Below, in pieces: positions 2,407 through 54,348 of a stretch of 64,000 bases of DNA. Under the pieces are notes generated by a model. That model searched no databases and was not told where the DNA came from. It saw only the letters and a list, made by a program, of their open reading frames with translations. Position 1 is the stretch's first letter, and each line of letters starts with the position of its first letter. The DNA lies in contig NZ_AP028155.1 in the NCBI RefSeq assembly GCF_033096445.1, forward strand, positions 2,919,880-2,983,879. Direction: 5' to 3'. A program made the translations under genes and the position numbers. Source of the stretch: Butyricimonas faecihominis (GTDB lineage: Bacteria; Bacteroidota; Bacteroidia; Bacteroidales; Marinifilaceae).

Positions 2407-2437
2407 TTTGCACCCTTTTCGAAAAGTATTACCTTTG
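2407..2437 (+). promoter_or_regulatory. Promoter upstream of cobalamin riboswitch 1
   Basis: TTTG at 2407-2410 and TACCTTTG at 2430-2437 are separated by 19 bp, a full match to the Bacteroidota -33/-7 promoter. Transcription would start just before the riboswitch. Confidence 0.7.
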
Positions 2438-2474
2438 CACCCGAATTTTGGAGCAAAGGTAATTTTTATCTAAT

Positions 2475-2616
2475 TACCCATTAGGGAATCCGGTGTAAAT
2501 CCGGGGCTGTACCCGCAGCTGTAATCTCTTATTTAATGATCCGGCACTGCTATGCCACTGTTCAGTGATGAATGGGAAGGCCACCGGATGACAGAGAAAG
2601 CCAGAAAACCTGCCAA
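2475..2616 (+). promoter_or_regulatory. Cobalamin riboswitch 1 (btuG1-btuB1 leader)
   Basis: The aptamer signatures are in order: GGGAATCCGGTGTAAATCCG, GCTGTACCCGCAGCTGTAA, TGCCACTG, a GGGAAGGCC element, and the B12 box region ending AAGCCAGAAAACCTGCC. It represses downstream expression when adenosylcobalamin or a related corrinoid is bound. It lies in the 345-bp gap before btuG1; the remaining ~110 nt to the ATG would hold the expression platform. Confidence 0.9.
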
Positions 2617-2727
2617 CATTCATTTTATTCAACGTTTCGGGAAGTAAACAACGAATTAGCATCTGGTAGTACCAAATACGTTATTCCTTGTTTTTCATCC
2701 TTAATTTTTAATTTATTAACAAATAAA

Positions 2728-3846: not shown

Positions 3847-3860
3847 ATAATTTCCCGCCC

Positions 3861-5798
3861 ATGAAATACACGCTGTTTCTCCTGTTACTAACACTTATAT
3901 CCCTGTTCGCCCAGGGCCAACACCGTGATAGTATTGCCATGTATGGCACAATTGACACCGTACTCGTACAGGAGAAACAGCTTGATAAGGCAAAAGACGC
4001 TAATGCCGGAACACGAGTCAGCACGATTGACATCGAAATATTAAATTCCAACCGGACAAAATCCCTAGCTGAATTACTTTCCGAAAACTCGGTCGTGTAC
4101 ATCAAAAGCTTGGGTCAAGGCGCCTTGGCAACCTCTTCTTTTCGAGGGACCAGTTCTACTCACACTCGTGTCAACTGGAATGGTCTCAACATCAATCCTC
4201 CCATGGCAGGTTCCTTCAACTTCTCACAAATTCCAGTCTTCTTCACCGACAACGTGGAATTACAATATGGTGCTGGAAACGTGAAAAACGGAACCGGATC
4301 TATCGGGGGAAGCATCAATCTATCCAACGCCCCCATCTGGGACGATCAGATACACACCCGTGCATTTGTAGAAGGCGGTTCATACTCCACTTACACGGGA
4401 GCAGCATCCGTGCGTGTCGGCAATTCCCGCCACTCATTCCACACGCGAGCTTATTACCAACAATCAGACAACAATTACACCTACACGAACAAAGTACTCA
4501 TGAAGGATCCCTTCCGGGAAAAACGAAAAGAGGCACAATACAAACAAGCCGGATTTATGCAAGAGGCTTACTTCAAAACTTCCGCCAACACGATGCTTTC
4601 TGCCAACGTGTGGTTACAATACGGTGACCGTAGGTTACCCCAACCCATCATGGTAAGCGTCACACAACATGAAAAACAGGAAGATTTTGACTTGAGAAGT
4701 TACATTGGATTCGATTACCTTTGGGGTAAACACAAGCTATTCCTGAAAGGCGCTTATTTCCTCAGTACCCTACAATATGATAAATGGAGTGACGGAACAT
4801 ACAAATATGCCGAAGAAGCCTTTAATCGCTCTGTCACCTACCACGTGGGTGCAGACTATCACTACAATCTCTCCCGATTTGTGAACCTCAACACGACCCT
4901 CAACTATACCCGAGATCAGATTAAAGCCGCTAATTTTTCCTCTGACAACATCGCCCGAAACGTCATTTCATGGCAAGCAAACTTCCGTTGGTCCGCAACC
5001 CCTTGGCTGTTGGTCAATGGTCAATTCATGGGAGAGTGGAACGACGGGGAATTCGCCCCGACCTATTCCATCGGGCTCTTTGCTCATTTACATGAAAACG
5101 TGTTAACCTTAAAAGGTAATGTGGCATACAATTATCGTTTCCCCTCAATGAACGACCTATACTGGCAGCCCGGAGGAAACTCGAACCTAACCCCGGAGAA
5201 AGGTTTCTCCTATGACCTGACACTGGGATATACACCCCGGTTAGGAGACCCCTTCACCCTAAACCTTGACGCTGCCCTATATTTGATGGACATTGACGGC
5301 TGGATCATGTGGTTACCCACAAAAGACTGGTTCTGGGAACCTCGTAACGTACAAAATGTGCGTAGTTATGGAGCAGAATTATCCGCCAAGGCAATTTTCC
5401 GGACAAATCATTTTCATGCTCGCCTGAACATCAACTATAACTACTCCCCTTCTGTCAACCGAGAACGCAATTTCGATGAAGACGATACCTACAAAAAGCA
5501 ACTCCCTTACATCCCCAAGCACAAAGCAAATGCTCTTTTAAACATCGAATACAAGAATTGCTTTCTCAACTATCAAACGAACTATACAGGTATTCGTTAC
5601 ACGATGGCAGACGAATCCTATAAAACGAATGCCTACACGATACACAATATTACCATAGGTTACAAACTCTCTTTACACAAAATAAAAATCACGCCTCAAA
5701 TTCGGATAGAAAATCTATTTGATGCCTACTACGAGTCCACGCAATATTATCCTATGCCATTGCGTAATTGTTTGGCATCCGTCATGTTCGAATTTTAA
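3861..5798 (+). CDS. btuB: BtuB-like TonB-dependent corrinoid receptor 1
   Basis: A 645-residue outer-membrane receptor. A signal peptide (MKYTLFLLLLTLISLFAQGQ) is followed by a plug domain (about 50-165: LAELLSENSVVYIKSLGQGA, SFRGTSSTHTRVNWNGLNIN, a GTGSIGGSINL strand) and a 22-strand-type barrel ending in the canonical terminal F (SVMFEF). No N-terminal SusC-type regulatory domain is present, which separates BtuB from SusC. A TonB box is not obvious (VSTIDIEIL is a candidate). It shares a riboswitch-controlled operon with btuG1 and would import B12 or an analogue into the periplasm. It converges on btuG2, with about 20 bp between the genes. Confidence 0.87.
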   Translation: MKYTLFLLLLTLISLFAQGQHRDSIAMYGTIDTVLVQEKQLDKAKDANAGTRVSTIDIEILNSNRTKSLAELLSENSVVYIKSLGQGALATSSFRGTSSTHTRVNWNGLNINPPMAGSFNFSQIPVFFTDNVELQYGAGNVKNGTGSIGGSINLSNAPIWDDQIHTRAFVEGGSYSTYTGAASVRVGNSRHSFHTRAYYQQSDNNYTYTNKVLMKDPFREKRKEAQYKQAGFMQEAYFKTSANTMLSANVWLQYGDRRLPQPIMVSVTQHEKQEDFDLRSYIGFDYLWGKHKLFLKGAYFLSTLQYDKWSDGTYKYAEEAFNRSVTYHVGADYHYNLSRFVNLNTTLNYTRDQIKAANFSSDNIARNVISWQANFRWSATPWLLVNGQFMGEWNDGEFAPTYSIGLFAHLHENVLTLKGNVAYNYRFPSMNDLYWQPGGNSNLTPEKGFSYDLTLGYTPRLGDPFTLNLDAALYLMDIDGWIMWLPTKDWFWEPRNVQNVRSYGAELSAKAIFRTNHFHARLNINYNYSPSVNRERNFDEDDTYKKQLPYIPKHKANALLNIEYKNCFLNYQTNYTGIRYTMADESYKTNAYTIHNITIGYKLSLHKIKITPQIRIENLFDAYYESTQYYPMPLRNCLASVMFEF

Positions 5799-5818: not shown

Positions 5819-6979
5819 TCATTTCAACTCCTGTAAAGGCCTTGTCGTAAACACAATGTGAGCAGGAATATCTCCCGTTTGCACATCCCATTTCTTCTTT
5901 CCGTCGGACCCGAAACAATACAACCTCCCCGGAGTAACATAATCTCCGGCATCGCCCACGAAGATCTCGCCCGTTTCTGGATTTACCGCCAAAGCGTAAG
6001 GAGTCACGATAGACTTCTCGGTTCCGTCCTTGATAAAATTCCGAGAAACAATACGTTTCGCCTTCGTGTCATAAATCGTGTAATTGACCGTCCACTTACT
6101 CGTAATCTTACTATATTCTGTACTGTAAGAATAGAGCGAATCGCCGCACAAATAAAGTTCGCTCGCCGGGAAATTCAAAGCTCCTTCCACGAGATCATTC
6201 TTCGCGTTTATCACGTAAGTATTCGAATGTACGTTATAATAATCCCCGCGGGAAGTCACGTAAATCAGTCCATTTTGGTCAACACGCATACGATGTAGAT
6301 TAATCGCCACCGTGATTTTCTTCGTCTCCTTAAACGTTTCCAAGTCAATCACGGACACCGTATTATCGTAATTCGGCACACGGTATCCCCCGGAGTTTGC
6401 AACATACAACTTATTCCCGACAATCACCATCTCTTCCGGTTGGTACCCCACGGTACAACTCCCCACGACTTTCAGCGTGGCCGTGTCAATCTTCACCACC
6501 TCACCCAAACGGGCATTCGGATCTATCTGTACCGGTCCGGCATACGAACTGACATAAGCGAATCCCTCATGAAAAACAATATAACGACAATTCGTTACCG
6601 TGATCTTCGTAATTTCCTTCGCCGTGTTCACATCCATCACCTCGATCAAGTGAGAACAATTAATCACCGCATACAATTTATTCCCGTAAATCTGAATATC
6701 ATTCCCCACGTCTCCCAGCTCCTTTACCACGCCCGGATTCCGCTCCGCGAATATATTCTTATGATACCCTCCGGAAGCATAATTGAAATAATCCAACGTG
6801 GCCTTATTACTTCCCATATTCCCCTCGTTCAACAGGAAAAAACCTTTTACAGGCCCCGGCACCGAATCGCTCGGGGTAACCTTCGTTATCACGGACGGAA
6901 TAATTTCATCATCATCATTCCGACAAGAAAAAAACAATAACATTCCCAACGCGAGGAACATTAACATACCCAATTTCAT
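5819..6979 (-). CDS. btuG: BtuG surface cobalamin-binding lipoprotein (canonical copy)
   Basis: A 386-residue lipoprotein (MKLGMLMFLALGMLLFFSC, then RNDDDE). The propeller contains the features of canonical BtuG: GFFLLNEGNMGSNKATLDYF, GNDIQIYGNKLYAVINCSHL, YVANSGGYRVPNYDNTVSVI, YALAVNPETGEIFVGDA, and a DIPAHIVF ending. It would bind B12 at the cell surface and hand it to the BtuB encoded just upstream. The frame is open further upstream into btuB2, but the ATG at 6979 gives a normal signal peptide; ATGs at 7000/6997 are alternatives. It is the second gene of the riboswitch-2 operon. Confidence 0.9.
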   Translation of the reverse strand: MKLGMLMFLALGMLLFFSCRNDDDEIIPSVITKVTPSDSVPGPVKGFFLLNEGNMGSNKATLDYFNYASGGYHKNIFAERNPGVVKELGDVGNDIQIYGNKLYAVINCSHLIEVMDVNTAKEITKITVTNCRYIVFHEGFAYVSSYAGPVQIDPNARLGEVVKIDTATLKVVGSCTVGYQPEEMVIVGNKLYVANSGGYRVPNYDNTVSVIDLETFKETKKITVAINLHRMRVDQNGLIYVTSRGDYYNVHSNTYVINAKNDLVEGALNFPASELYLCGDSLYSYSTEYSKITSKWTVNYTIYDTKAKRIVSRNFIKDGTEKSIVTPYALAVNPETGEIFVGDAGDYVTPGRLYCFGSDGKKKWDVQTGDIPAHIVFTTRPLQELK

Positions 6980-7011
6980 TCGATTTTCACAATACATCAT
7001 TCGATCTTTAT

Positions 7012-9018
7012 CTAAATTTCTATGTTGATAATAAACTTCACGTTCGTCCCCGGCATCGGGTAACACTGCACCACCTCGTACTGTTGGTTAAAAATATTAT
7101 TCGCCTCCGCCGTCAGTCTAATTGCAGTCTTTCGCCACGAGAAATTCTTCGATAACGAGAAATCACTCGTGTACCACTCTTTAGCCCTGTTCTCCGGGAT
7201 ATTCGCGCTCGCCTCGTAACGCTTCCCCGTGTATATAAAACTATAATTCAAAAACCAGCTCTTGTACGTCCCGTTCAAAATCAGCGAACCACTATGCCAA
7301 GGGATATAAGGAATCTGATCTCCATAATACGTACTCTCTTTCTTTGTAAAATCCTGGGCCTTCTGGTATGTGTAATTCACCCGGGCATCCAACAACCAAT
7401 GTTGACAGAACCTCCAATTACTCTGCAAGGCTACATCAATACCTCGAATTTCCACCTCTCCCAAATTCACCATCGTCCAGCGAAACTGGTTGGAAGTCGG
7501 CATGGCAATAATCTTATCGGACACCTCGTTATAGTAGGCGTCCACCTGTACGTCCAGCCCCTGCAACACCCCTTTGTCAAAGTTGCGATTATAAGTCACT
7601 CCCACGTTATACTGGTTCGTGTACTCTGGTTCCAGATTTATATTCCCGATAAAAGTATAATACAAATCATTCAACGTCGGCATTCGGAACACACGCTTAT
7701 AAAAAGCCCTCACGTTAAAATCCGCCACACGGAACGGCTGCCACGCCATCACGACCGTGGGAGTATATTCCTGCATATCATCGGCTGCCCCATTCGCCAC
7801 CTTCGTCCGCTCATGCACGAAAGTCCCCAACACGCTTGCCTGAAATTTAAAACGATCAAAATGCAAGGCCGTTGCCACGGCCCCTAATGTCGTGTAACGG
7901 GTCGGATAGACAAAATCCACCAAATCCGCATTCAGCTTGTTCCACTGAAAATCCACGGACACATCCACGTTCCAAAAAGGCAAAATGGCAAACATATTGG
8001 CTGACGAAACATAAATTTCGTGTTGCCGGAAATGATTATTCACGTACATCGTACTCACGTCCAACCGGGGATCGGAAAGATAATGCAGAAAATCATAGGC
8101 ATACTTCGCGTTCATCTGTAAACTATAACCACTAAAATGCCTCAAAAAAGAACCTTGAAGGAAAAAATTAGAATCCCATTGACGATCCTGATGCTTGAAC
8201 TTTCCCGGCTCTTCCCGTACCGATGCTCCGGGATAACCTCTTTCGGAATCATAAAAATACGCCTTGGCCTTCCACTCCCCGTCATTCATCCGGCCAAACA
8301 CACCGTACTCTGCCCGCAAGGCACGAACATCCCCGTTCTTACGCACCTCGGTTGTATCGTAACCGTTCTTTTTCCGGTAACTGAACTTGTATTTTCCTGT
8401 CGTGTACATATACTCCGAACTAAAAGCCCCGCTCACGTGTTCCCCCAACCGATGTTCAAACAACACCGATGGATTCGCCACCCCGAAAGATCCCGTTTTA
8501 AAAGTAACCTTCGCGTTATATTTCTTCCCGTCTGTAAACCTCGGTGTACGGCTTGTCATGTAAATAGACCCGGCCGAGCCAAAATCTTTGGCAGACTGGA
8601 ATATGGCACTCCGCTGCCCGTTATACAAAGAGATCGCCTCCATGTTATCCAGTGAAAAACGTCCCAGATCCACGGTCCCGTTCTGCGCATTTCCCAACTC
8701 GATACCATCATAAAACACCCCCACGTGTTGGGTCCCCATCGCCCGGATATTCACGGTCTTCAAGCCCCCGATTCCCCCGTAATCCTTGATCTGCACCCCC
8801 GAAAAATAACGCAAAGCATCCGCGACGGAATGCACCGTCAACCTTTGTAACACCGGGCCTTCCATCGTTTGAACCGGAATCACCTCCTTCTGAACCCGCT
8901 TGGCGGAAACAACAACCTCATCAATATTGTACACCTTTGTCGTGTCCACTTTTTGTGCCCACGAACCATTCCCAAACAAGGAACACCATAAAATTACACC
9001 AAAAACGATTAATTTCAT
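7012..9018 (-). CDS. btuB: BtuB TonB-dependent cobalamin receptor 2
   Basis: A 668-residue outer-membrane receptor: signal peptide ending GNGSWAQ, a TonB box (NIDEVVVSAKR) at about residues 32-42, a plug with DALRYFSGVQIKDYGGIGGL and NIRAMGTQHVGVFYDGIELG, and a barrel in which FRMPTLNDLYYTFIGN and NLEPEYTNQYNVGVTYNRNF match the BtuB-type signature. It is larger than and clearly distinct from BtuB1. It is the first gene after riboswitch 2 and is followed by btuG2, the partner that forms a stable lid complex in Bacteroides. Confidence 0.92.
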   Translation of the reverse strand: MKLIVFGVILWCSLFGNGSWAQKVDTTKVYNIDEVVVSAKRVQKEVIPVQTMEGPVLQRLTVHSVADALRYFSGVQIKDYGGIGGLKTVNIRAMGTQHVGVFYDGIELGNAQNGTVDLGRFSLDNMEAISLYNGQRSAIFQSAKDFGSAGSIYMTSRTPRFTDGKKYNAKVTFKTGSFGVANPSVLFEHRLGEHVSGAFSSEYMYTTGKYKFSYRKKNGYDTTEVRKNGDVRALRAEYGVFGRMNDGEWKAKAYFYDSERGYPGASVREEPGKFKHQDRQWDSNFFLQGSFLRHFSGYSLQMNAKYAYDFLHYLSDPRLDVSTMYVNNHFRQHEIYVSSANMFAILPFWNVDVSVDFQWNKLNADLVDFVYPTRYTTLGAVATALHFDRFKFQASVLGTFVHERTKVANGAADDMQEYTPTVVMAWQPFRVADFNVRAFYKRVFRMPTLNDLYYTFIGNINLEPEYTNQYNVGVTYNRNFDKGVLQGLDVQVDAYYNEVSDKIIAMPTSNQFRWTMVNLGEVEIRGIDVALQSNWRFCQHWLLDARVNYTYQKAQDFTKKESTYYGDQIPYIPWHSGSLILNGTYKSWFLNYSFIYTGKRYEASANIPENRAKEWYTSDFSLSKNFSWRKTAIRLTAEANNIFNQQYEVVQCYPMPGTNVKFIINIEI

Positions 9019-9173
9019 TTACTCTGCCATTACAACGATAACAAATCCGATCATTCCATTTCCGGCAATCGCTTTCATTTGCAATCACCTTGGACCCAAT
9101 CATTAATTCAAGAAAGATTTATTTTTCTTGCACCTCGCAAACTCTAGTCCCAGAGAGTTACGAACTCATGATC

Positions 9174-9343
9174 TTGGCAGGTCTTCTGACTTGCTCCGTC
9201 CTTGAACGCCCTTCCCATTTCGTGTCGAAACAGTGGATGTGAGTCTTGTTCACGGACTTTGGCGGAGCTTACAGCAGCGGGTCTGTTCAGGATTCGCACC
9301 TGATTCCCTTTTCATCACACGCCCGAAACGAGGTGTGACACCA
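9174..9343 (-). promoter_or_regulatory. Cobalamin riboswitch 2 (btuB2-btuG2 leader)
   Basis: On the - strand: GGGAATCAGGTGCGAATCCT, GACCCGCTGCTGTAAGC, CCACTG, GGGAAGGCG and the B12 box AAGTCAGAAGACCTGCC. A TATTTTCG at 9353-9360, one base from TAnnTTTG, is the probable -7 box. The sequence is nearly the same as riboswitch 3. The rest of the 520-bp gap is a ~150-nt leader plus the hairpin at 9472. Confidence 0.92.
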
Positions 9344-9471
9344 AAATCGTTACGAAAATATATAAAAAAACAAATACTATTTGGATTTTAGAACGAAAAA
9401 TTCAATTATTCACAACATTTCTTGCTTACAAACAAAAAGGAATTTCTATCCTCCCCCTATCGATTAAAATT

Positions 9472-9516
9472 CGAGGGGAAGCGCTCGATACCTATTATCA
9501 TGAGCACTTCCCCTCG
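9472..9516 (-). terminator. Large hairpin after the LRR lipoprotein operon
   Basis: Inverted arms CGAGGGGAAGCGCTC (9472-9486) and GAGCACTTCCCCTCG (9502-9516) pair over 15 bp with one mismatch around a 15-nt loop. It lies just after the stop of the gene at 9538 on the - strand and is followed by AATTTTAAT, so it is a plausible transcription terminator or mRNA-stabilising hairpin. Confidence 0.6.
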
Positions 9517-9537
9517 GGCATTAGTTTAACAACCAGC

Positions 9538-11961
9538 TTACGGTTTCACCAATTTTCCAGCCTTTGCCTCCTCGAAAGTCGGGTTGTAAGCATTCCCTCC
9601 AACGAGCCATGACATTTCATCGTCAAGAGACCCGATTGCCTTTTCCAAACCTTTGAAAGAAACAAGTCCTCCTTGTTTGTGTATATCAATAACATCAACA
9701 CGTTCCAAAGCAGAAAAACAATCCAAATCCGTTATCGTCGTATTATATTGGGTCTCGTCATTCGCCCTCGAAGTCATGACAAGTTTCCCGACACGTTTCA
9801 ACACGGGAGTATAAATTTCCTCCAGCATCGTGGGGTACATCCCGTTCACGAAAGAAGTTGTGATCTCCATACTTCCGGTCACCTCCTCTAAGGCAGGGAA
9901 ACGCAAGGCTTCAGCCGCACCCACATAAGTCATACTACCCACCTTCTTGAGTTTAGGATATTCCGTGGGCTGCACCCTCATCCGTGCCCCCTGACCTTCA
10001 GTCAATTTCATAGCATTATCAACAACTTCAAGATCAGGAAGACGAATGACTCCCTTATTCTCACTATACCCTTGAGTAATATTTAAAGTCCCAAGTTCCT
10101 TCACTCCGGAGAAATTATATTCTACACGATCAGTCTTCGAAACCGGGACATCATTAATATTCAAGCTCCCAATCCAGTCAAAACCAACAAAATTCATCCC
10201 GGGAACTTTATTCAAAGTAAAAGCTCCTTCAAAAGAACCCTTCCCTTTCAACGTAATCACATGACTGGCCGAAATCGTAACCGTGGCCGTAGTCAACCCC
10301 GTAAGATCAAGCTCTTGTAAAGCATCAAGTCCGCTGAAAGAACAAGTAGTAAGAGAACCTGTCTGAAGTTGAGCCAACAAAGTAAAGCTTTCCAACTTTT
10401 TCATTCCTGATAAAGAAAGTTGCTTGCCCACGGAACGTAAGGCCGTCAACCCGTTGATAGCCGAAATCTCATTCAAGTTACTCAAGAACATGTTCCCCCC
10501 GATCGTCTCTAAACGGCTGAACCCGGTAAAAGATACCGCTACCTGCATATCGGATAGTGTGAAATTTCCTCCAACCGAAGTCAAATTAGAAAAGCCATCA
10601 ATCGCGGTGATACCAGACATCGAAGAAAACGTGAAATCACCTCCCACTTCTTTCAACGCTTGTAAAGATTTCATATCAGTAAAAACACCACTCTTCAATT
10701 CATACTTACCGACCACGGAAGTCAAAGCAGAAAGATCAAGAGAAGCTAACTTGTAACAAACTTCAATATTCAATCCCCCCTTCCCCAAAGTAGCAAGATT
10801 ATGCAGGTCAATTACTTCGAGATCTTCAATATAATACACCCGAAAACCTCCCGCAGAACGAAGATTCGGCAGGTTAAATTCCTTTACCCGATGGGTCCAT
10901 TGCAACGTGATCTGATCACTGACCGAGGTCAATTGACTAAAATCAAACTCCTCAACCACCTCCATCGTCTCAAGATAAAGCACCCCAACCGATTGCAATA
11001 CCGGGAATGCAATTTTCCTCGTATTATAAATACGTGTAAGATCAAGCCTGTTCCCAACAACCGCCAAAGAGGGGAATACAATTTCCTCTGGAGCAACAAT
11101 ATTGGAACTTGACTGCCTTCCCATGATATAGAAATTAGCTCCTACCGTCTTCAACGCCGAAAAGTCCAATTCCCCAAGCTTCCAAGTCTGGACATTAAAA
11201 TTGCCACTCACGCTCTCAAGAGCAGGTAAATTAAGATTATAAAGCGTATCGGCAGAAATCGTAAAATCCCCACCAACAGCCTGCAAATTAGGCAAATTCA
11301 CTTCTCGTACGAAACGTATTCCCCACGGCCCATTCTCATATGGCCGCGGAGTCATAACGAACCCTCCTGCCCGTTGCAGATTCTGCAATCCATCAAGAGA
11401 AGTTCCCCGGTAAGTAGGATTAATCGTCACCACGCCCGTAACTTCCTTCAAAGCCGAGAGAGCAGCAATGGAAGTAAGCGAATCCTCCTTCACGCTTCCC
11501 GCCAGCTTACCAATAACAAGATTCCCCTCTATTTTACCAATACCACGAGCCGCGAAAGCCTCAACCTCCTCAGGGGTTGTCAAACGGACATCTCCCTCAC
11601 TAGCTAAAACCGTTCTGGTAACCATATACTTGTAAACCCGCTGATTATTGTTATAGGAAGTAACCGTAAAATTAAACGCCTCTCCCCAATTTTCCACTTC
11701 AGCCGGATCAGGTGAAACGCTGGCATTCTCACTACAAACGATCTCCACTTTTGCCCCCTCAAGAGACACATTTTCGGGAACAAGAAGCAACAACGTATCT
11801 CCGGAAACAAGTCCGGTATAAGTATTACCATCTTGAAGAAGACGGAATGAAGTAATAAAATTTTCGTCTCCGGAAAAAATACTGTCATCATCCTCGCAAG
11901 AGACAAGTAAAGCCATAAAGCTTACAACGAGTATATATAAAAATCTATTCATTTTCATCAT
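9538..11961 (-). CDS. Surface lipoprotein with leucine-rich-repeat-like solenoid (paralogue 2), B12-regulated
   Basis: About 807 residues. Lipobox LLVSC followed by EDDDS indicates a surface lipoprotein. Residues ~25-125 form a DUF5018-like Ig fold (FITSFRLLQDGNTYTGLVSG); the rest is a solenoid of 20-25-residue repeats of the type LPNLQAVGGDFTIS, FSALKTVGANFYI, FSNLTSVGGNFTLS, resembling bacterial receptor-L/LRR folds. It is the last gene of the riboswitch-3 operon. ATGs at 11961, 11958 and 11952 are all possible, the first lying 2 nt after the upstream stop. Function is not known. Location suggests corrinoid or corrinoid-protein capture at the surface; that is inference. It is paralogous to the gene before it. 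Confidence 0.85.
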   Translation of the reverse strand: MMKMNRFLYILVVSFMALLVSCEDDDSIFSGDENFITSFRLLQDGNTYTGLVSGDTLLLLVPENVSLEGAKVEIVCSENASVSPDPAEVENWGEAFNFTVTSYNNNQRVYKYMVTRTVLASEGDVRLTTPEEVEAFAARGIGKIEGNLVIGKLAGSVKEDSLTSIAALSALKEVTGVVTINPTYRGTSLDGLQNLQRAGGFVMTPRPYENGPWGIRFVREVNLPNLQAVGGDFTISADTLYNLNLPALESVSGNFNVQTWKLGELDFSALKTVGANFYIMGRQSSSNIVAPEEIVFPSLAVVGNRLDLTRIYNTRKIAFPVLQSVGVLYLETMEVVEEFDFSQLTSVSDQITLQWTHRVKEFNLPNLRSAGGFRVYYIEDLEVIDLHNLATLGKGGLNIEVCYKLASLDLSALTSVVGKYELKSGVFTDMKSLQALKEVGGDFTFSSMSGITAIDGFSNLTSVGGNFTLSDMQVAVSFTGFSRLETIGGNMFLSNLNEISAINGLTALRSVGKQLSLSGMKKLESFTLLAQLQTGSLTTCSFSGLDALQELDLTGLTTATVTISASHVITLKGKGSFEGAFTLNKVPGMNFVGFDWIGSLNINDVPVSKTDRVEYNFSGVKELGTLNITQGYSENKGVIRLPDLEVVDNAMKLTEGQGARMRVQPTEYPKLKKVGSMTYVGAAEALRFPALEEVTGSMEITTSFVNGMYPTMLEEIYTPVLKRVGKLVMTSRANDETQYNTTITDLDCFSALERVDVIDIHKQGGLVSFKGLEKAIGSLDDEMSWLVGGNAYNPTFEEAKAGKLVKP

Positions 11962-11963
11962 TC

Positions 11964-14021
11964 TTATTCTTGAATATTTGGTTTCGTCCATTGTCCTTCC
12001 TCCACCAACTGTTTATAAGTAGGATTATAAAGATTATCCTCAACCTGCCATTTATCCTCCGGACAAGTCAGCACGGCAGCCTTAATCGCGGCAAAAGAAG
12101 CAAGTTTATCATGTTTTCGGATACGTAGCCCCCCAATTTTCTCCAACGAAGAAAGGAAATCCAAATTCTCCCATTTCGTATTCTTGTAATTAACATCATC
12201 GTTATCACTCGAAACATTCGGTCCTAGTGGACGCAAATCAAGCGTGCCACCAACCTGTTTAAGAGACGGGTAGAGAATTTCCAGAGGACCGCGATCCCCG
12301 TAATACGAGTATCCCGTCTGGATAATCATATTCCCACCCACGGTTGCCAACAAGGGGAAAGTCTCTTCATCATAAAGATCAATACTCATGGTTGCATCCC
12401 CTCCAATAGTTGTCAACTTGGGAAAATGCTCTTTCACGCTCGAAGAATATAATTTAAAATTACCTCCAATTTCCTCAAGATCTGAGAGAGACACTGGTTT
12501 TATGTTATAATTCACCCAGTAAGAAAAATCCCCGTTTATCTTACGAATACCATTGATTTCAACCGTCCCCTCCCGCAAGCTCAACGAACTGATCGTCAAC
12601 CATTCAATTTCATGAAATCCTTGTAATTTAGGCATATACCCACCTAAATTCTCCAACTTAATACCACCATTGAAACGATCATCCGCGATAACCGTGGTAG
12701 TTTCAAGCCCGGTACCGGTGAATCTCAGTTCATCAATCTGAACACCCCGCAAATCAACTTCCCCGATCCCATTCGCCAAGACAAGAGTCTTCAAGCTTTT
12801 CAAACTGGAAGGAAACTGCAAACGCTCCGCACTACTTTTAATTGTAAGAGTTCCCCCCACACTCTCAAGTGATGCGATATTATCGGAAAGAATACCCGCC
12901 GTCGCTATACTGAAATCTCCATCAACAGATTGTAACAACGGTAAATTAAATTGATTCACACCGGTACACGTCAAGTTAATACTTCCCGCACGGGTTAAGA
13001 CAGGGAATGTAATCTCGTATAACGGATTTTCCAAAATACTCAATGCAGAAGCAATGGTTTGCAAATTCGGACAATAAAGCAACAATAGAGACCCTTTCGC
13101 CACGTTCAAGTTATCACAAGAAATCAATTCAGGAAATTCCAGACGCACGACAGGCATATTCACGCTAACAGAACCTCCAACCTTATCAAGAGATTGAAAA
13201 ACCATCTTCTGAACAGTGGACTTACCATTCAAGGAAAGATTACCACTCACGGATTGCAAAGCCGAAAAATCTGATGATACAAAAGGAGTTGCCAAAGTAA
13301 GGCTACCACCTACAGACTGCAATTTCGGGCAAGAAACCTCCGCGGCAGAAGCACTCGTGATATTAAAATCACCGCCTACACGAGTGAGGTTATCCATCAC
13401 CACCACCCACAAGCTATCCGCTGAATTGATTTGGAGGGAACCACCTACCTCTTCGAGATTATCCAAACCCTCGAACTGATTCCCTAAATAGTAACGATTA
13501 AGGACCACATTCTCTGTCACTTTTTTTAAAGAGGAAAGCGCCGCCAGCGAAGTAATCGTATCCGTTCCTACCTGACGCCCGATAATAAGACTGCCATCAA
13601 CACGAGAATACCCCTTCGCACCAAAAGCATCAACCTCCTCTTGCGTATTAAGCATGATGATTCCCTCGGCAGAAAAATAACTCCGGGACGGAATATACAT
13701 ATACTTCCGTTCCACCCCGGAATGTGACGTTACAACAAAATACATCTGTTGTTCCCAGTTATCAATCATTGACGGATCGGGTTTTATCGTCGTGTTTTCA
13801 CTACATATAACTTCTGCGGCAAGTCCTGAAAAAGAAACATTCTCAGGCATATTCAATAAAATCGTATCACCCCGAAAAGACGCGACAAAAACTTGATCGC
13901 CCTGTTTAAGGGTAAACGAGGTAATAAAATTGTCATCTCCGGAAAACGGATCATTATCATCTTCACAACCGATAATAAAAGAAAGCATGAGAAAAAATCC
14001 CCAAAGTATATTCTTATTCAT
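11964..14021 (-). CDS. Surface lipoprotein with leucine-rich-repeat-like solenoid (paralogue 1), B12-regulated
   Basis: 685 residues, lipobox FIIGC then EDDND. It has the same layout as the next gene: a DUF5018-like N-terminal Ig domain (DDNFITSFTLKQGDQVF, with NMPENVSFSGLAAEVICSEN matching VPENVSLEGAKVEIVCSEN in the paralogue), then LRR-like repeats (LDNLEEVGGSLQINS, FSALQSVSGNLSLNG, LASLESVGGTLTIKS) and the shared C-terminal NLYNPTYKQL motif. It lies 19 nt after the PKD-type lipoprotein and 2 nt before its paralogue, so the three are one transcript. No catalytic motif is visible; a binding or scaffold role is likely. Confidence 0.86.
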   Translation of the reverse strand: MNKNILWGFFLMLSFIIGCEDDNDPFSGDDNFITSFTLKQGDQVFVASFRGDTILLNMPENVSFSGLAAEVICSENTTIKPDPSMIDNWEQQMYFVVTSHSGVERKYMYIPSRSYFSAEGIIMLNTQEEVDAFGAKGYSRVDGSLIIGRQVGTDTITSLAALSSLKKVTENVVLNRYYLGNQFEGLDNLEEVGGSLQINSADSLWVVVMDNLTRVGGDFNITSASAAEVSCPKLQSVGGSLTLATPFVSSDFSALQSVSGNLSLNGKSTVQKMVFQSLDKVGGSVSVNMPVVRLEFPELISCDNLNVAKGSLLLLYCPNLQTIASALSILENPLYEITFPVLTRAGSINLTCTGVNQFNLPLLQSVDGDFSIATAGILSDNIASLESVGGTLTIKSSAERLQFPSSLKSLKTLVLANGIGEVDLRGVQIDELRFTGTGLETTTVIADDRFNGGIKLENLGGYMPKLQGFHEIEWLTISSLSLREGTVEINGIRKINGDFSYWVNYNIKPVSLSDLEEIGGNFKLYSSSVKEHFPKLTTIGGDATMSIDLYDEETFPLLATVGGNMIIQTGYSYYGDRGPLEILYPSLKQVGGTLDLRPLGPNVSSDNDDVNYKNTKWENLDFLSSLEKIGGLRIRKHDKLASFAAIKAAVLTCPEDKWQVEDNLYNPTYKQLVEEGQWTKPNIQE

Positions 14022-14040
14022 AATTCGCTTGTTTTTAGTC

Positions 14041-15762
14041 CTATTTTTTAGCTTTTAAACGTAAATCAATAGCAGCCGAGGATTCAGTAGAAACTTCTCC
14101 GACAGCAGCCCCCTGTCCCATTTGCGCGGTATGAACCTTCACGAAATCTATGTATTTAAGATTAGCCGGGGAACCGTCTTGTTGGATCGCGTTCTCGATG
14201 CGAAAACCTGTCGGCTCGTTAATATTATCCACGTATCCCCAATCAAAACCCCAGTTCGTTTCAAGTCCCTCGGTTTTAAATTGATTTCCCAAACAAGTAC
14301 CCGTCAATATATAATACTCTTCTTTAAGGAACCATGGGAAATAACCGCTATCCGGGTGATAAGCATTACGGGCCAAGAAACGGAGATTCCCGTCATTATC
14401 GATAGACAGCACATCCTGTTTCTCCGCCGTGGGCCGGAAATACTTCAACGCATATCGCTGAGTGATGCCGGGCTTACCAGTTTCACTACCTTTAAGCTCG
14501 TACCAAGTATCATCAGGAATGCCATTACCATTCTCGTCCTGACTCACCCACACGACACCACATTCACACCAATGTTTACCAAGAGGGTTCCCCACGATAT
14601 CAAAATCAGCCTCACCTTTACCATCATCTTTAACGCTATGGTCAAATTGCAAGATAAAATAACCGCCCCAAGCTCCCAAAGAAGCTATCCAAGACTCTCC
14701 TCCACCGCTATCCAACGTCTTCTGTATTGACATCCGGGCATCCTCTGCCGTCTGATTCTGTGTAAACCTGATAAATTGACCGGGAGCAGGAATAAATTCA
14801 TAACAAGTATTCGAAATATAGCTACTTGTAGCTTTCGTTTCTCTAAAATGAGTTCCTTCCGGAGCCTCGCAAACGACATTCACGGTGGCCATCGCCGTCT
14901 TTTCCTTATCGTTTGCCGTCACGGTAATCTCATAAGTTTTCCCTTCAACAGAAGGGGTAAAATTATAACAAATTGACGTTTCACCCTCTTGCACGACACC
15001 ATCCACTTTCCACTCGTAAACAGCCAGATCACTGATCGAGAATTTCACGGGAGCGAGTACTACATTTTTCCCGATCGGACAAGTCATCGTACGCACATCA
15101 TTCAACTGAGAAGGCAAAACGTAACGCCCGTTATCAAAGAATAATATAGGCTTTTCCTCCGGAATAACTGATATATTGATATTCTTCACATCGGCCCCAT
15201 CCTCATTCGTCACCTTTAACGCCACCGTGTAAACATTAATATCATCCTCCTTAAACACATAAATAGAATCATGCCCAACAACTTTCCCGTTATAGCTCCA
15301 TTCAAAAGTAGTCGATTCATCCGTGTAGTCCGTCATGGCCGCCATCTCCTTCTCCAAACCACAATATGCCACTGCCGAAGCCGACATTGTGATAGAAGGT
15401 GCCAAACGATCCACCACGGTTACTTTTACTTGTTTCTCCACGCTACCGTTATCCGCATCAAGGCGGAAATTCACGAAAAACTCTCCCAATTGACTACCTT
15501 TAAAAAGATAAACCGTGTCATTTGCCACGATCACCCCCTCCTGTTTCCAAGAATAAACAGGATTCACTGCATCCGTCACCGAAGCCTTTAGTGCCACCTC
15601 TTTACCTATCTTCACCTTATACTCTCCCGTCTCTGAATTAAAAGAGAAATCGGGATTACCGACGAGAACCTTTTCATCATCGTCATCACATGCCGTAAAG
15701 CCCCCGATAAAGAACATCACAAGCAACACTAGCCTAATCTGATTTTTTTTTCTCATAATCAT
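14041..15762 (-). CDS. PKD/Ig-repeat surface lipoprotein of the cobalamin regulon
   Basis: 573 residues. Lipobox GFTAC followed by DDDDEK. Three PKD/Ig-like domains occupy about 35-115, 116-200 and 205-298 (typical YSWKQEGVIVANDTVYLF, FEWSYNGKVVGHDSIYVF, YEWKVDGVVQEGETSICYNF). The C-terminal ~270 residues form a distinct module (SLGAWGGYFILQFDHSV, VVWVSQDENGNGIPDDTWYE, FVKVHTAQMGQGAAVGEVST) seen in cell-surface proteins of Bacteroidota; the DENGNGIPDD loop looks like a Ca2+ site. It is the first gene after riboswitch 3. It may correspond to one of the accessory B12-binding lipoproteins (such as BtuH) described for Bacteroides, but that cannot be decided here. ATG 15756 is an alternative start. 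Confidence 0.85.
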   Translation of the reverse strand: MIMRKKNQIRLVLLVMFFIGGFTACDDDDEKVLVGNPDFSFNSETGEYKVKIGKEVALKASVTDAVNPVYSWKQEGVIVANDTVYLFKGSQLGEFFVNFRLDADNGSVEKQVKVTVVDRLAPSITMSASAVAYCGLEKEMAAMTDYTDESTTFEWSYNGKVVGHDSIYVFKEDDINVYTVALKVTNEDGADVKNINISVIPEEKPILFFDNGRYVLPSQLNDVRTMTCPIGKNVVLAPVKFSISDLAVYEWKVDGVVQEGETSICYNFTPSVEGKTYEITVTANDKEKTAMATVNVVCEAPEGTHFRETKATSSYISNTCYEFIPAPGQFIRFTQNQTAEDARMSIQKTLDSGGGESWIASLGAWGGYFILQFDHSVKDDGKGEADFDIVGNPLGKHWCECGVVWVSQDENGNGIPDDTWYELKGSETGKPGITQRYALKYFRPTAEKQDVLSIDNDGNLRFLARNAYHPDSGYFPWFLKEEYYILTGTCLGNQFKTEGLETNWGFDWGYVDNINEPTGFRIENAIQQDGSPANLKYIDFVKVHTAQMGQGAAVGEVSTESSAAIDLRLKAKK

Positions 15763-16005
15763 TAATCTGTTATTTCGACAATTCTTTTCATCCTATTTTT
15801 ATTTCAACCTCCTGTTTGCAATACATACCACATATGCCCGCGGTAACACCACAAAAGCAAGCATTCAATTCATAGCTGACACAAAACAACAGCTTTCCGG
15901 TCCAAATAGATACAAATAGCAATAATTGTCTATCGCACAACAGTCTGATAAAAATAATGTTTTCTGTATCCAAGCTCTAGTCCCAGAAAGCTTTAGATCC
16001 ATGAT

Positions 16006-16180
16006 ATTGGCAGGTCTTCTGACTTGCTCCATCCTTGAACGCCCTTCCCATTTCGTGTCGAAACAGTGGATGTGAGTCTTGTTCACGGACTTTAGTGGAG
16101 TTTACAGCAGCAGGTCTGTTCAGGATTCGCACCTGATTCCCTTTTCACCACACGCCTGAAACAGGGTGTGACACCAAAAT
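16006..16180 (-). promoter_or_regulatory. Cobalamin riboswitch 3 (PKD/LRR lipoprotein operon leader)
   Basis: On the - strand: GGGAATCAGGTGCGAATCCT, GACCTGCTGCTGTAAAC, CCACTG, GGGAAGGCG and AAGTCAGAAGACCTGCC. It differs from riboswitch 2 at only about ten positions by eye. It places the three surface lipoproteins in the B12 regulon. About 240 nt separate it from the first gene; nothing else was recognised in that 5' leader. Confidence 0.92.
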
Positions 16181-16185
16181 CGTCG

Positions 16186-16193
16186 CAAAAATA
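16186..16193 (-). promoter_or_regulatory. -7 element before riboswitch 3
   Basis: TATTTTTG on the - strand matches TAnnTTTG and lies immediately upstream of the riboswitch. No good TTTG is found 19 bp further upstream. Confidence 0.45.
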
Positions 16194-16362: not shown

Positions 16363-17049
16363 TTACGATTCAGCCTCCCACAGGCACACCGAATCGGAAA
16401 CATCCTTCCCGTCGGCATTTTTAGCAAAGACATAAATGACAAGGCCTTCCCCGGCTATTTTTTCTGAAAAGTTCACGCTTTTTTCTATCGTCTCTCCCCG
16501 AAGTCCCAACTCCTCGACACGACAAATATATTTCGTCTTACAAAGAAGCACGGCATAAATCTTATCATCCAGAAAGCAATCAACGGACTCGATTTCTTCC
16601 TTCTCGTGAGTGAAAAAGATTCTCCGATTTTCCATATCAACCTCGGCACGAATTTCTGGGATCACCAACGAACCCGCTGCCACGCGTAATTTCTCGTAGT
16701 TGATCACCCCGTTAAATTCCTTGACTGCTTTCTTACGGCTATTGAAAGGTTTTTCCGGATTTGCTTTCTCCACGGTCACCGCATCCATCACGTTCGCACT
16801 GGTAAATCCCCGAAAACCTTTCGGGTAACCGTTCCCTCCGGGAAATCCCAACTGGACGGCATTTCTCATCCATATTTTCCGTTCCGTTATCGTCCCGAAA
16901 GCCGCGGACTGTCGTTTTTGCGGTTCCTGACTCGGTTTACGCGAGATGCTTGTCCCCCGGCAATAATTTTTCCCGCTTGGTCCCCCGTAAGTGATCACGT
17001 TACCGAACTTACCCCGAATCTTTCCAAGTGGATTTACAAATTCCGCCAT
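16363..17049 (-). CDS. DUF6266-like hypothetical protein
   Basis: 228 residues, no signal peptide, no membrane segment. The N-terminal half (NPLGKIRGKFGNVITYGGPS, CRGTSISRKPSQEP, then SANVMDAVTV) resembles the DUF6266 family of Bacteroidota, whose role is unknown. The C-terminal half is predicted beta-rich, perhaps fibronectin-like (RIFFTHEKEEIESVDCFLDD). It is divergent from 17309-17962, which has a comparable layout (GSIRI..ITYYRHGNKVRACKSRRSPKK). Basic, glycine-rich N-termini of this kind could contact nucleic acid, but that is speculative. It sits inside the B12 cluster without an obvious link. Confidence 0.68.
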   Translation of the reverse strand: MAEFVNPLGKIRGKFGNVITYGGPSGKNYCRGTSISRKPSQEPQKRQSAAFGTITERKIWMRNAVQLGFPGGNGYPKGFRGFTSANVMDAVTVEKANPEKPFNSRKKAVKEFNGVINYEKLRVAAGSLVIPEIRAEVDMENRRIFFTHEKEEIESVDCFLDDKIYAVLLCKTKYICRVEELGLRGETIEKSVNFSEKIAGEGLVIYVFAKNADGKDVSDSVCLWEAES

Positions 17050-17308: not shown

Positions 17309-17962
17309 ATGGAAAACACATTATCTATTCCAGTAGCTCTCTTGGCACAAGGCTCTATCCGGATCGACGGGATAACCTATTACCGACACGGCAATAAAGT
17401 TCGGGCCTGCAAATCACGACGGAGCCCTAAAAAAACAAGAACCGAGGGGGAAGAGGAATCCTCCAGCCGTTTCACGGAAGCCCGTAAAATGTGGAGAATC
17501 TATCGTCGTGCCATCGGGGATTTACCGATATGGAAACTCATGGCCAAGGAGATGGGAATAAATAAAAGCGATTCCTTATTCCATTCTCAAAACGGAGGAT
17601 GTTTTCGCCCGGGAGAAGGGGTATGGGCTTTCCCGACATTCCGATTCTCGACAGGCACGCTGGATGCACCGGTGATCACGGGTGTCACAAGGGAAGGATG
17701 GTCCGTGACCCTAAACTGGGAAAATGACATTGACTGCCCGAAAGCGAGCGTGTCAGATCAAGTGTACGTGGGATATTTTTACGGGACCTTACCCCGCGCC
17801 CCGCAAATGATCACGTGTTTTAACTCGTTTCGGGGCGATGGCAAGGTGACCGTGGACATTCCGGCAGCAAAACAACCGGAAGGGACACCCCTGCATCTCT
17901 ACTTGTTTTTCGGCAATAAAGATACCACCCGTTTCTCTCCAAGCGTGTACGCGGGAGTGTAA
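17309..17962 (+). CDS. DUF6266-like hypothetical protein (second, divergent copy)
   Basis: 217 residues, no signal peptide. The N-terminal third is basic (GNKVRACKSRRSPKKTRTEG), followed by a helical stretch (FTEARKMWRIYRRAIGDLPI, then WKLMAKEMGI) and a beta-rich C-terminal half that resembles a fibronectin/Ig fold (WSVTLNWENDIDCPKASVSD). The order of parts matches the 16363-17049 protein although similarity is low. No enzymatic motif is seen. It has its own promoter and no co-transcribed neighbour. Confidence 0.65.
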   Translation: MENTLSIPVALLAQGSIRIDGITYYRHGNKVRACKSRRSPKKTRTEGEEESSSRFTEARKMWRIYRRAIGDLPIWKLMAKEMGINKSDSLFHSQNGGCFRPGEGVWAFPTFRFSTGTLDAPVITGVTREGWSVTLNWENDIDCPKASVSDQVYVGYFYGTLPRAPQMITCFNSFRGDGKVTVDIPAAKQPEGTPLHLYLFFGNKDTTRFSPSVYAGV

Positions 17963-18521: not shown

Positions 18522-19652
18522 ATGAAACGAGTACTATTTTTATTCACGTCAATCGTTCTGCTGATGCTATCCGGTTGTCAGACGAAAACAAAGTCCACGA
18601 CCGCCTTCACGAAGGAAGTTTACTCACCGGAATACGCCGCGGGCTTCGACATCATGGGAGCTGATAACACGGAAAGCACGATTATTCGCGTGCGTAATCC
18701 TTGGCAGGGAGCGGAAGGCATTGAAATGTCCTACTTCGTGGCCCGGAACGGAGAGCAGGCACCGAAAGATTTTGACGGGGTGATTATTCCTGCGGGAGCC
18801 AAACGAATTGTGTGCATGTCATCCACTTATATCGCCATGCTGGATGCCATTAACCAAGTAGATCGAGTAGTCGGAGTTTCCGGGATGAATTATGTTTCCA
18901 ACCCGTATGTCCTTGCCCACAAAGAAACCATAAAAGACATGGGGGCAGAAGTAAATTACGAACTTCTTGTCGGGTTGGCCCCGGATCTCGTGTTACTTTA
19001 CGGCATCGGGGACGCGCAATCAACCGTGACGGACAAATTAAAAGAATTGAATGTTCCTTATATGTACGTGGGGGAATACTTGGAAGAATCTCCGCTGGGC
19101 AAGGCTGAATGGTTGGTTGCCATTTCCGAATTGACGGATAGCCGGGAAACAGGTACAAAAGTATTTAAAGAAATACCCGAACGTTATAACAACATGAAAC
19201 AGTTAACGGCAAACGTGGAAAAACGTCCTACCGTCATGCTGAACACGCCGTGGAATGACAGTTGGGCCATGCCTTCCGTGAAAAGCTACGTGGCACAATT
19301 AATCACGGACGCGGGAGGGGATTATATTTACAAGAAAAACACCTCTAACGGGGCCGAACCCATCGGACTGGAAACAGCCTACGGGTTGATTCGCGAGGCT
19401 GACGTGTGGTTGAATGTAGGCATGGCAACAACTCTCGACGAGTTAAAGATCATGAACCCGAAATTCAAGGACGCGAAAGCCATCCAAGAAAACAAGATCT
19501 ATAATAATAACTTGCGCTTAACGCCCGAAGGGGGAAATGATTACTGGGAATCGGCTGTTGTACGCCCGGACATCGTACTCCGGGACCTGATCAAAATCCT
19601 GCACCCGGAACTGGTGACGGAGGATTTGTATTATTACAGGCACTTGGAATAG
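18522..19652 (+). CDS. btuF: BtuF-like cobalamin ABC transporter substrate-binding lipoprotein
   Basis: 376 residues, lipobox LMLSGC then QTKTKS; there is no acidic run after the cysteine, which fits a periplasm-facing lipoprotein rather than a surface one. Two Rossmann-like lobes of the BtuF/FepB class are visible (KRIVCMSSTYIAMLDAINQV, DRVVGVSG, then LVGLAPDLVLLYG; second lobe MLNTPWNDSWAMPSVKSYVA, ADVWLNVGMATTLDELK). It would deliver periplasmic corrinoid to BtuCD. It is the first gene after riboswitch 4. btuC, normally adjacent, lies 1.5 kb downstream because of an IS110 insertion. Confidence 0.88.
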   Translation: MKRVLFLFTSIVLLMLSGCQTKTKSTTAFTKEVYSPEYAAGFDIMGADNTESTIIRVRNPWQGAEGIEMSYFVARNGEQAPKDFDGVIIPAGAKRIVCMSSTYIAMLDAINQVDRVVGVSGMNYVSNPYVLAHKETIKDMGAEVNYELLVGLAPDLVLLYGIGDAQSTVTDKLKELNVPYMYVGEYLEESPLGKAEWLVAISELTDSRETGTKVFKEIPERYNNMKQLTANVEKRPTVMLNTPWNDSWAMPSVKSYVAQLITDAGGDYIYKKNTSNGAEPIGLETAYGLIREADVWLNVGMATTLDELKIMNPKFKDAKAIQENKIYNNNLRLTPEGGNDYWESAVVRPDIVLRDLIKILHPELVTEDLYYYRHLE

Positions 19653-19783: not shown

Positions 19784-21072
19784 CCTTAGATTTGTACACG
19801 AAATAAATAGACGAACACTTGGCTAACAATAATAATAAATGCTTAAACTTGGAGGATAAACCAAAGTATTGAAAGAAAGGCGGGAATGGAGTGAACCAAC
19901 CCCTGTGGTGAGCTTTCATGCTCGTCCCCTTATTTGGACTCCTTTCCCTTTCTTGAACCCAGGCCCGTATAAGAAATTAACTTGAATTGTTAAGGTACTT
20001 GGGACAGGTTCAAAATCCTTTCTCTCTAGACTTGTTAAACACAAAAGTATGGAAAATAATTGTTTTATAGGCATCGACGTGAGTAAAAATAAACTTGACA
20101 TTTGCGTTCTTCAAGGTAAAGAAGTTTTGCAAGAGGACGTTATAGATAATAACCCGTCCGCGATCCACCGTTTCCTTGTCGACATGGCGGAAAAGCGGGG
20201 CTTGGATCTTTGCAGTTGCCTTGTTTGTGCCGAGCACACGGGAAATTACACTTACCCCTTGACGTTGGCTTGCCGGGATCTAGGTTGTCGTTTGTGGCTG
20301 GAAAATCCCGCCCAGTTGAAGTACTCGTCGGGAGTTCATCGTGGCAAGAACGACCGTGTAGACGCCCGGCGGATAGCGTTGTACGCTTCTCGATTCAATG
20401 ACAAGGCCATGTTGTATCACGAGCTTACCCCGGAACTGGAACGGGTCAAGCAACTGAGACAGGAACGCTCTCTTTACCGTTCGGACTTGAGCAAGTACAA
20501 GGGGCAACTTTCGGACCAGAAAAATTTCATGGAGAGTACCGTTTACAAGGCGAAGGCAAACCGGTTGAAACACGTGATCAAGGAACTAGAGAAGATGATC
20601 GATGTCGTGGAGCGAGAAATAACGGGAATCATCGATTCTTGTGATGTTTTAAAACGTCAAATGAAAATAATAACCTCGGTGGAGGGCATTGGAAGGGAAA
20701 CCGCCTTGTGTTTTATCGTCGAGACCGCGGCGTTCACAAGGTTCACCGACTCGAGAAAGTTTGCCTGTCACGCGGGAATCGCCCCTTTCCAGTACACCTC
20801 CGGCAGTAGCGTGCGCTCCCGTAACAGGGTCTCGCGCAGGGCAAACAAGCAGGTAAAAACGTTACTACACATGGCTGCCTTGTCTATAACAAGGAAAAAG
20901 AAGAGTGAATTGAAAGTGTATTACAAGAGAAAGGTGGAAGAAGGCAAAAACAAGATGACCGTCATCAATGCCATCAGGGCCAAGCTGGTCGCTCGTGTTT
21001 TTGCCGTCATTAGAAAAAATGATATTTATTCCATAAATTTTACTTGATTTACTTGTTTAAACCATAAGAATA
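19784..21072 (+). mobile_element. IS110-family insertion sequence
   Basis: A ~1,289-bp element deduced from the interrupted palindrome: TA at 19782-19783 and TA at 21071-21072 would be the shared 2-bp core. It holds one transposase gene and a 265-nt non-coding left end, the position of the bridge RNA in IS110-group elements. No terminal inverted repeats are expected or seen. The GC-rich flanks on both sides belong to the target, not the IS. Confidence 0.75.
20049..21047 (+). CDS. IS110-family transposase (DEDD recombinase)
   Basis: 332 residues with the two domains of the family. The N-terminal RuvC-like DEDD domain shows FIGIDVSKNKLDICV (first D), CAEHTGNYTYPL (E) and GKNDRVDARRIALYA (DD pair). 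A central coiled region (about 130-200) is followed by the C-terminal Tnp_2 domain (ITSVEGIGRETALCFIVETA, FACHAGIAPFQYTSGSSVRS) with the serine region and a basic tail. Length is usual for the family and the frame is intact, so the element may be active. Confidence 0.93.
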   Translation: MENNCFIGIDVSKNKLDICVLQGKEVLQEDVIDNNPSAIHRFLVDMAEKRGLDLCSCLVCAEHTGNYTYPLTLACRDLGCRLWLENPAQLKYSSGVHRGKNDRVDARRIALYASRFNDKAMLYHELTPELERVKQLRQERSLYRSDLSKYKGQLSDQKNFMESTVYKAKANRLKHVIKELEKMIDVVEREITGIIDSCDVLKRQMKIITSVEGIGRETALCFIVETAAFTRFTDSRKFACHAGIAPFQYTSGSSVRSRNRVSRRANKQVKTLLHMAALSITRKKKSELKVYYKRKVEEGKNKMTVINAIRAKLVARVFAVIRKNDIYSINFT

Positions 21073-21174
21073 AGGGGGAGTTAGAGGGGGTAGTTAAAGC
21101 GTCCCCCCGTGCGGCTGGAATCTAAAATCATAAATCAAGAAATTAATAACGGTGATGTCATTTTCAATTTTATC

Positions 21175-37877: not shown

Positions 37878-37884
37878 TTTAAAT

Positions 37885-39420: not shown

Positions 39421-39422
39421 GG

Positions 39423-42962: not shown

Positions 42963-43064
42963 AACTTTGAGAAATTAAATTGATATTGAATTTAATGAAA
43001 TGGGTTGTCAGAAATAATCACCACAAAATCTCTGGCTCCCATTTTTATTTATAGCAATACGTGG

Positions 43065-52702: not shown

Positions 52703-52711
52703 ATCTCTTTT

Positions 52712-54346: not shown

Positions 54347-54348
54347 AA

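Follow-up and report, generated by a model that had tools for sequence, protein, structure and literature searches.

A cobalamin riboswitch operon of Butyricimonas faecihominis encoding a BtuH homologue and two lipoproteins assigned to the BtuL family

Layout of the operon

The stretch of DNA analysed here, called the window below, comprises 64,000 nucleotides (nt) of Butyricimonas faecihominis (contig NZ_AP028155.1, positions 2,919,880 to 2,983,879), and the system under study is a set of three lipoprotein genes arranged in tandem on its minus strand, from 15762 to 9538, behind a full cobalamin riboswitch and ending at a strong hairpin. Judged by homology, the first gene encodes BtuH, a known type of B12 binder, and the other two encode LRR2 and LRR1, paralogous members of the BtuL family with a confidently modelled leucine-rich repeat (LRR) solenoid. 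Riboswitches of the cobalamin class allow expression of the genes behind them when corrinoid is scarce. The features of the operon are as follows.

15992-16193, minus strand: cobalamin riboswitch preceding the operon (RF00174, full-length model match, 104.5 bits, E 4.4e-25)
14041-15762, minus strand: btuH, PKD-type surface lipoprotein with a C-terminal B12-binding domain, 573 amino acids (7biz_A, 8blw_B, PKD_3)
11964-14021, minus strand: LRR2, the first btuL-type gene, 685 amino acids (Recep_L_domain at 7.4e-13, structural model, BLASTP match to the protein at the BtuL position of locus 2)
9538-11991, minus strand: LRR1, the second btuL-type gene, 817 amino acids as the longest open reading frame (paralogue of LRR2, structural model, VIA match)
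about 9473-9515, minus strand: strong hairpin after LRR1 (fold of 9440-9560 at -43.9 kcal/mol, z -4.53 against shuffles)

The riboswitch lies 229 nt from the btuH start, btuH and LRR2 are 19 nt apart, and LRR2 and LRR1 are separated by 2 nt when LRR1 is taken to start at the ATG at 11961, near which its start is likely to lie, the first in-frame ATG (11991) being one that would overlap LRR2. A first-pass annotation made from the sequence had described this three-gene operon with the same gaps, and the open reading frames together with the full RF00174 match bear it out. Its lipoprotein assignment also agrees with the N-termini, which by eye display a lipobox-like motif whose cysteine is followed by acidic residues (VSC-EDDDS, IGC-EDDND and TAC-DDDDE), and its statement that enzymatic motifs are lacking concurs with the Pfam scan, in which none of the three proteins showed an enzyme domain. 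Neither did any of them show a DUF4465 (BtuJ) domain, and the genome has a single PF14717 match at E 0.01, which lies beyond the window, at 3906663. The hairpin is the probable end of the transcript; it also appears among the terminator-like sites of a consensus scan, whose total of 7 is not above the shuffle mean of 6.1.

The BtuH homologue

The PKD-type protein matched BtuH2 of Bacteroides thetaiotaomicron (PDB 7biz_A) with a phmmer E of 1.2e-71 over query residues 146-567, and the H domain of the BtuG-BtuH fusion (8blw_B) with 2.1e-44. Like BtuH2 (BT_1956), it presents PKD-like domains (PKD_3 in Pfam) N-terminal to the B12-binding domain. On this homology it is a BtuH, a firmer statement than the possible kinship proposed at first pass, and the corrinoid-capture setting suggested there is likewise upheld.

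Six residues of BtuH2 are described as contacting B12, namely Gln333, Asn399, His476, Tyr510, Trp511 and Trp577 (PMC8941943). The operon protein retains Gln333, Asn399 and His476, both residues that touch the nucleotide loop among them, and differs from BtuH2 in having Leu, Glu and Ala in place of Tyr510, Trp511 and Trp577. Across 18 aligned BtuH sequences the glutamine is found in 17, the asparagine in all 18 and the histidine in 14, with the other three positions more variable, and the full set of six occurs in four sequences including BtuH2 itself. Since half of the contacts are kept, with both nucleotide-loop ones included, and the remainder are variable, the operon BtuH likely binds B12, by a mode or with a preference that may differ from those of BtuH2.

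Sequence and modelled fold of the LRR pair

LRR1 and LRR2 are paralogues (E 4e-69; 28% identity over 823 columns, 32% in another alignment). Pfam finds Recep_L_domain in both and LRR_EndoS in one; at E 0.01, 27 of 30 family members have a PF01030 match. Direct sequence search of the PDB, with LRR1 as the only query, gave nothing at E 0.1, so the fold was obtained by modelling. The AlphaFold models of LRR2 and LRR1 (mean pLDDT of 88.3 and 88.8, respectively) depict an immunoglobulin (Ig)-like N-terminal domain followed by a long solenoid, with limits in LRR2 at about residues 33-119 for the Ig-like domain and about 120-660 for the LRR part, and a longer solenoid within the same architecture in LRR1. 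VIA-align related the LRR2 model to internalin J (Z 16.0, root-mean-square deviation (rmsd) 7.1, 318 aligned residues) and the LRR1 model to the Leptospira LRR protein LIC11098 (Z 22.8, rmsd 6.8, 366 aligned). Thus, the LRR-like character noticed at first pass is supported both by the Recep_L_domain matches and by the confidently modelled solenoids. The likeness to internalin J and LIC11098 concerns the solenoid; identity is 13%, and the LRR pair differs from them in its lipid anchor, its Ig-like N-terminus and a conserved C-terminal YNPT stretch.

LRR and Recep_L solenoids mostly bind proteins, a general property that speaks against the LRR pair being extra high-affinity capture proteins that bind corrinoids directly, as the first-pass annotation had offered among its options. 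Sharing an operon and a riboswitch with BtuH would suit such a role, which on balance we regard as unlikely.

The levan surface glycan-binding protein (SGBP; 8a9y_G) has an N-terminal domain to which the Ig-like domain of LRR2 is similar, with a TM-score by target of 0.75, rmsd 1.9 over 88 columns and E 5.9e-3; the Foldseek and VIA lists are a weak test of this domain, and absences from them are not used as evidence. In the levan utilisome (8a9y, 8aa2) the similar domain also stands beside a lipid anchor, in a protein that has no LRR solenoid and takes glycan as its ligand, and it is placed on the lip of SusC (PMC7618045). The LRR proteins might by the same token be accessory subunits of BtuB/BtuG, seated on the barrel through their Ig-like domain. 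This arrangement appears doubtful, considering that (i) Ig-like domains are common, (ii) BtuH is described as not stably associated with BtuBG, other such contacts being transient at most (PMC10404256), and (iii) the genes of the family lie mostly behind btuH, not behind btuB or btuG.

Relationship to BtuL

In locus 2 of Bacteroides thetaiotaomicron, btuL (BT_1955) is located between BT_1956 (btuH2) and BT_1954 (btuG2) (PMC12751083). Near-identical copies of this locus, with gene order J-H-L-G-B-F-C-D, carry an LRR gene at the btuL place between btuH2 and btuG2 (loci and genomes are designated by our L and G numbers). The btuH products of L061 and L070 are identical to 7biz (448/448 residues), the L061 btuG product is identical to 8bmx, which is BtuG2 (366/366), and its BtuJ2 agrees with 9i2l in 303 of 305 residues. 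The L061 protein at the btuL position matched LRR2 by BLASTP at 2.7e-38 over residues 8-694 of 696, and LRR1 at 8.9e-45 over residues 5-349, that is, the N-terminal half. By virtue of this homology to the LRR protein at the BT_1955 position, both LRR1 and LRR2 are classed as members of the BtuL family, and the early description of the pair as new machinery without precedent is not supported. The J-H-L-G-B-F-C-D order was found in Bacteroides xylanisolvens, Bacteroides finegoldii, Bacteroides bouchesdurhonensis, Bacteroides faecalis, Phocaeicola faecicola, Phocaeicola coprocola, Phocaeicola plebeius (here with a shorter btuH reading frame of 462 amino acids) and Butyricimonas; the locus of the window is also carried by Butyricimonas sp. 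Marseille-P3923.

Both systems place a lipoprotein gene directly behind a PKD-type btuH with a cobalamin riboswitch upstream, and the homology of LRR2 is full-length. They differ in that btuL is single and precedes btuG-btuB-btuFCD, whereas the window has two divergent copies that end the operon, with no btuJ in it. For BtuL itself, cobalamin binding was reportedly not seen, high enrichment in vesicles without B12 is reported, and deletion of btuL led to fewer vesicles early in growth (PMC12751083). Several unrelated lipoproteins of the Bacteroides thetaiotaomicron loci do bind B12 (PMC12751083), which lends some plausibility to corrinoid binding by the LRR pair; on the contrary, BtuL, the relative at the equivalent place of locus 2, is the one reported not to, and the binding of corrinoids first proposed for the pair is not supported.

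Distribution and linkage to PKD-type btuH

Homologues of LRR1 at E 1e-5 occur in 18 of 56 same-family genomes, being weak or partial only in G308, G338, G340 and G341, and homologues to the family profile at 1e-20 in 15 of the 56, with G308 giving a match to the solenoid only. At the same threshold, homologues of the L protein of locus 2 occur in 32 of 158 genomes from the genus to which G165 belongs, and an order-wide search matched 13 of 393 genomes, from the N-terminal domain on in four only (G000, G277, G165 and G407); the weak order-wide matches cover just the Recep_L/solenoid part and were excluded from the family.

Gene order was compared in 27 clusters with a btuL-type gene (L gene), drawn from 26 scanned sources and including the near-copies L061/L070, L064/L072/L101 and L122/L123; L124, L125, L073-L080 and L131-L134, among others, had no riboswitch scan and stand outside this set. 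A same-strand cobalamin riboswitch lies upstream in 24 of the 27, the contig ending first in the other three (L056, L062 and L065). In 23 clusters, from several families, btuH directly precedes the L genes; in L065 the contig starts before any btuH could show. These figures bear on a further reading, which takes the LRR proteins for internalin- or BspA-like adhesins that attach to the host and are mere passengers of an operon under B12 control. The best VIA matches do include internalins and Leptospira LRR proteins, but a common fold shows no function, and a B12 riboswitch in 24 of 24 determinable clusters, together with the position behind btuH in several families, makes such passengers very improbable.

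Linkage was also approached from the side of btuH. The 56 family genomes contain 23 full-length PKD-type btuH genes, from which two at contig ends (G314 and G343) were dropped. By hand count, an L gene is in the operon of 18 of the 21 determinable genes, versus none of 11 matches consisting of the C-terminal domain only, the latter figure resting on genomes without an L match at 1e-20 and not on gene surroundings (the L gene of G309 lies elsewhere). The Fisher p of 2.8e-6 is too small because the loci are related. Nonetheless, the contrast of 18/21 with 0/11 ties the L genes to one form of BtuH: they go with the PKD form.

Single and duplicated L genes

When 31 L proteins were placed in a tree, the six single-copy ones fell on one side of a branch with support 97/95 and the tandem pairs, that of the window included, elsewhere. 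Copy a of the window groups at 100/100 with L054 and L055, and copy b, also at 100/100, with L053, L054 and L055; the tree carries warnings for two long branches (L066) and for odd letter composition in 7 rows. One ancient a/b split of LRR1 and LRR2 is not shown, the a/b labels needing 6 changes in the tree against a mean of 9.6 when shuffled. The idea that LRR pairs replace BtuJ was dropped: although BtuJ matches occur in the single-L loci of the tree, L063 combines such a match with an LRR pair. Two consecutive H-L-L units (btuH followed by two L genes), each with a riboswitch before it, are found in G303 (L054). The two copies could form a hetero-pair or serve two partners.

Flanking genes and related cassettes

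The genome is a single contig of 4.85 Mb with eight cobalamin riboswitches, four of them within the window. Downstream of the operon lie the following features.

9159-9360, minus strand: second cobalamin riboswitch, for the neighbouring btuB-btuG (RF00174, 110.9 bits)
7012-9018, minus strand: btuB-type TonB-dependent transporter of the neighbouring unit (plug and barrel domains; TIGR01779 at 3.1e-33, below its cut-off)
5819-7066, minus strand: btuG-type beta-propeller lipoprotein of the neighbouring unit (DUF5074; 8blw_B at 3e-43; true start probably further in)

Having their own riboswitch, btuB and btuG (9018-5819) look like a unit separate from btuH-LRR2-LRR1. A further riboswitch-btuG-btuB unit occupies 2432-5798 on the plus strand, opposite to the main unit. 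Upstream, two small genes, at 16363-17049 (minus) and 17309-17962 (plus), one of them weakly DUF6266-like, are situated between two divergent B12 riboswitches, and two reading frames of the same lengths as these (228 and 217 amino acids) adjoin the B12 locus of L054. An IS110-family transposase gene (20049-21047, plus) is present between btuF (18522-19652) and btuC (21109-22176); btuF-btuC-btuD is compact in other loci such as L061, and the btuC and btuD frames of the window are open. Two similar units at 37254-44228 and 52052-59105 (minus) each include a gene for a FecR-type anti-sigma factor and one for a large TonB receptor.

L061, L070, L073-L080 and L131-L133 carry near-identical btuJ-H-L-G-B cassettes, those of L078 and L079 being less alike; btuFCD belonged to them too wherever it was looked at. 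Their hosts are Bacteroides, Phocaeicola, Butyricimonas and a genome from another genus of the same family, a spread that a mobile element would be expected to show; PMC11005914 mentions a conjugative transposon with a locus for B12 transport. A second cassette of equal gene order occurs in L064, L072 and L101, and in L107 by protein match only; its BtuL-type protein is about 48-50% identical to that of the first and gives equal match scores across genomes of three families.

Proposed function and meaning

The reading that we favour, with moderate confidence, is that the operon forms a B12-regulated surface capture module, btuH-btuL-btuL, in which the LRR pair binds a protein, likeliest BtuH, and organises or sorts it on the outer membrane and vesicles. 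Upon corrinoid shortage, the riboswitch would permit expression of the operon, and BtuH, going by its homology, would capture corrinoid at the cell surface. LRR1 and LRR2, as lipid-anchored solenoids, would probably bind not corrinoid but another protein, for which BtuH is the first candidate because of the close linkage to PKD-type btuH. By analogy with the vesicle role of BtuL, the pair may then serve to organise BtuH, or to sort it, both on the outer membrane and in the vesicles that cells release when B12 is short.

Several observations weigh against this proposal. Three clusters have no adjacent btuH: a remnant of an H-L-L unit (L053, 9372-12863), where a riboswitch is followed by only the C-terminal half of LRR2 and btuH was not found; L057, with btuB in between; and L102, with btuG, a 522-nt gap and no btuH match. 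Conversely, three of the 21 PKD-type btuH genes (L116, L117 and L118) lack an L gene. The name BtuL was assigned by place in near-identical copies of locus 2 and not through the BT_1955 sequence itself, identity between LRR2 and the protein at that place is about 24% over the length, so that function may have changed after duplication, and in the tree the tandem pairs branch apart from the single-copy BtuL genes. The operon BtuH differs from BtuH2 at three of the six contact residues, and its contact with the LRR proteins is one that we infer. As for the vesicle role of BtuL, it comes from a single paper, through one deletion whose phenotype is confined to early growth (PMC12751083). Finally, a Bacteroides thetaiotaomicron mutant without operons 1 and 3, btuJ2, btuH2 and btuL outgrew the wild type at low cobalamin (PMC12751083), which implies that uptake there can do without the accessory proteins and that in pure culture they can be a cost.

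The behaviour of this mutant also counts against the LRR pair binding a corrinoid-carrying protein or particle, be it intrinsic factor, haptocorrin, or vesicles or B12-binding proteins of other bacteria, to steal its B12, and a similar trend was reported on vesicle-bound cobalamin, though with several genes missing together (PMC12751083). The LRR fold of the models and the reported stripping of B12 from intrinsic factor by BtuG2 (PMC10404256) would fit such an activity, which we hold to be improbable. Were the solenoids nonetheless to recognise carriers loaded with corrinoid, whether vesicles that contain B12 or proteins of the host or of neighbouring cells that bind it, as seems rather a long shot, the H-L-L operon would be a module for the theft of B12 in packaged form, and BtuH would take over the corrinoid set free.

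Regarding novelty, BtuH is already known and BtuL has been named in print. IPR036941, which we take to be the receptor L-domain superfamily, is the InterPro entry concerned. As it is listed among the proteins of cobamide uptake loci (PMC10797578), the receptor L domain has probably already been annotated by InterPro in such proteins. A search of the main text of PMC12751083 gave no hit for leucine, LRR, solenoid or horseshoe, and in the texts searched neither the LRR architecture of BtuL nor its linkage with BtuH nor the duplicated form was found described. Within these texts, three things appear to be new: the LRR architecture, the close linkage of BtuH and BtuL, and the duplication seen in the H-L-L operon of Butyricimonas relatives.

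An apparently new pair of lipoproteins is turned into members of a family in which one protein has been studied. That protein, BtuL, in turn gains a modelled fold, relatives in many genomes and a partner closely linked to it in the genome. Fold and linkage to PKD-type BtuH together lead to a concrete, testable idea of how a lipoprotein that does not bind B12 may affect B12-scavenging vesicles, namely by holding or sorting BtuH.

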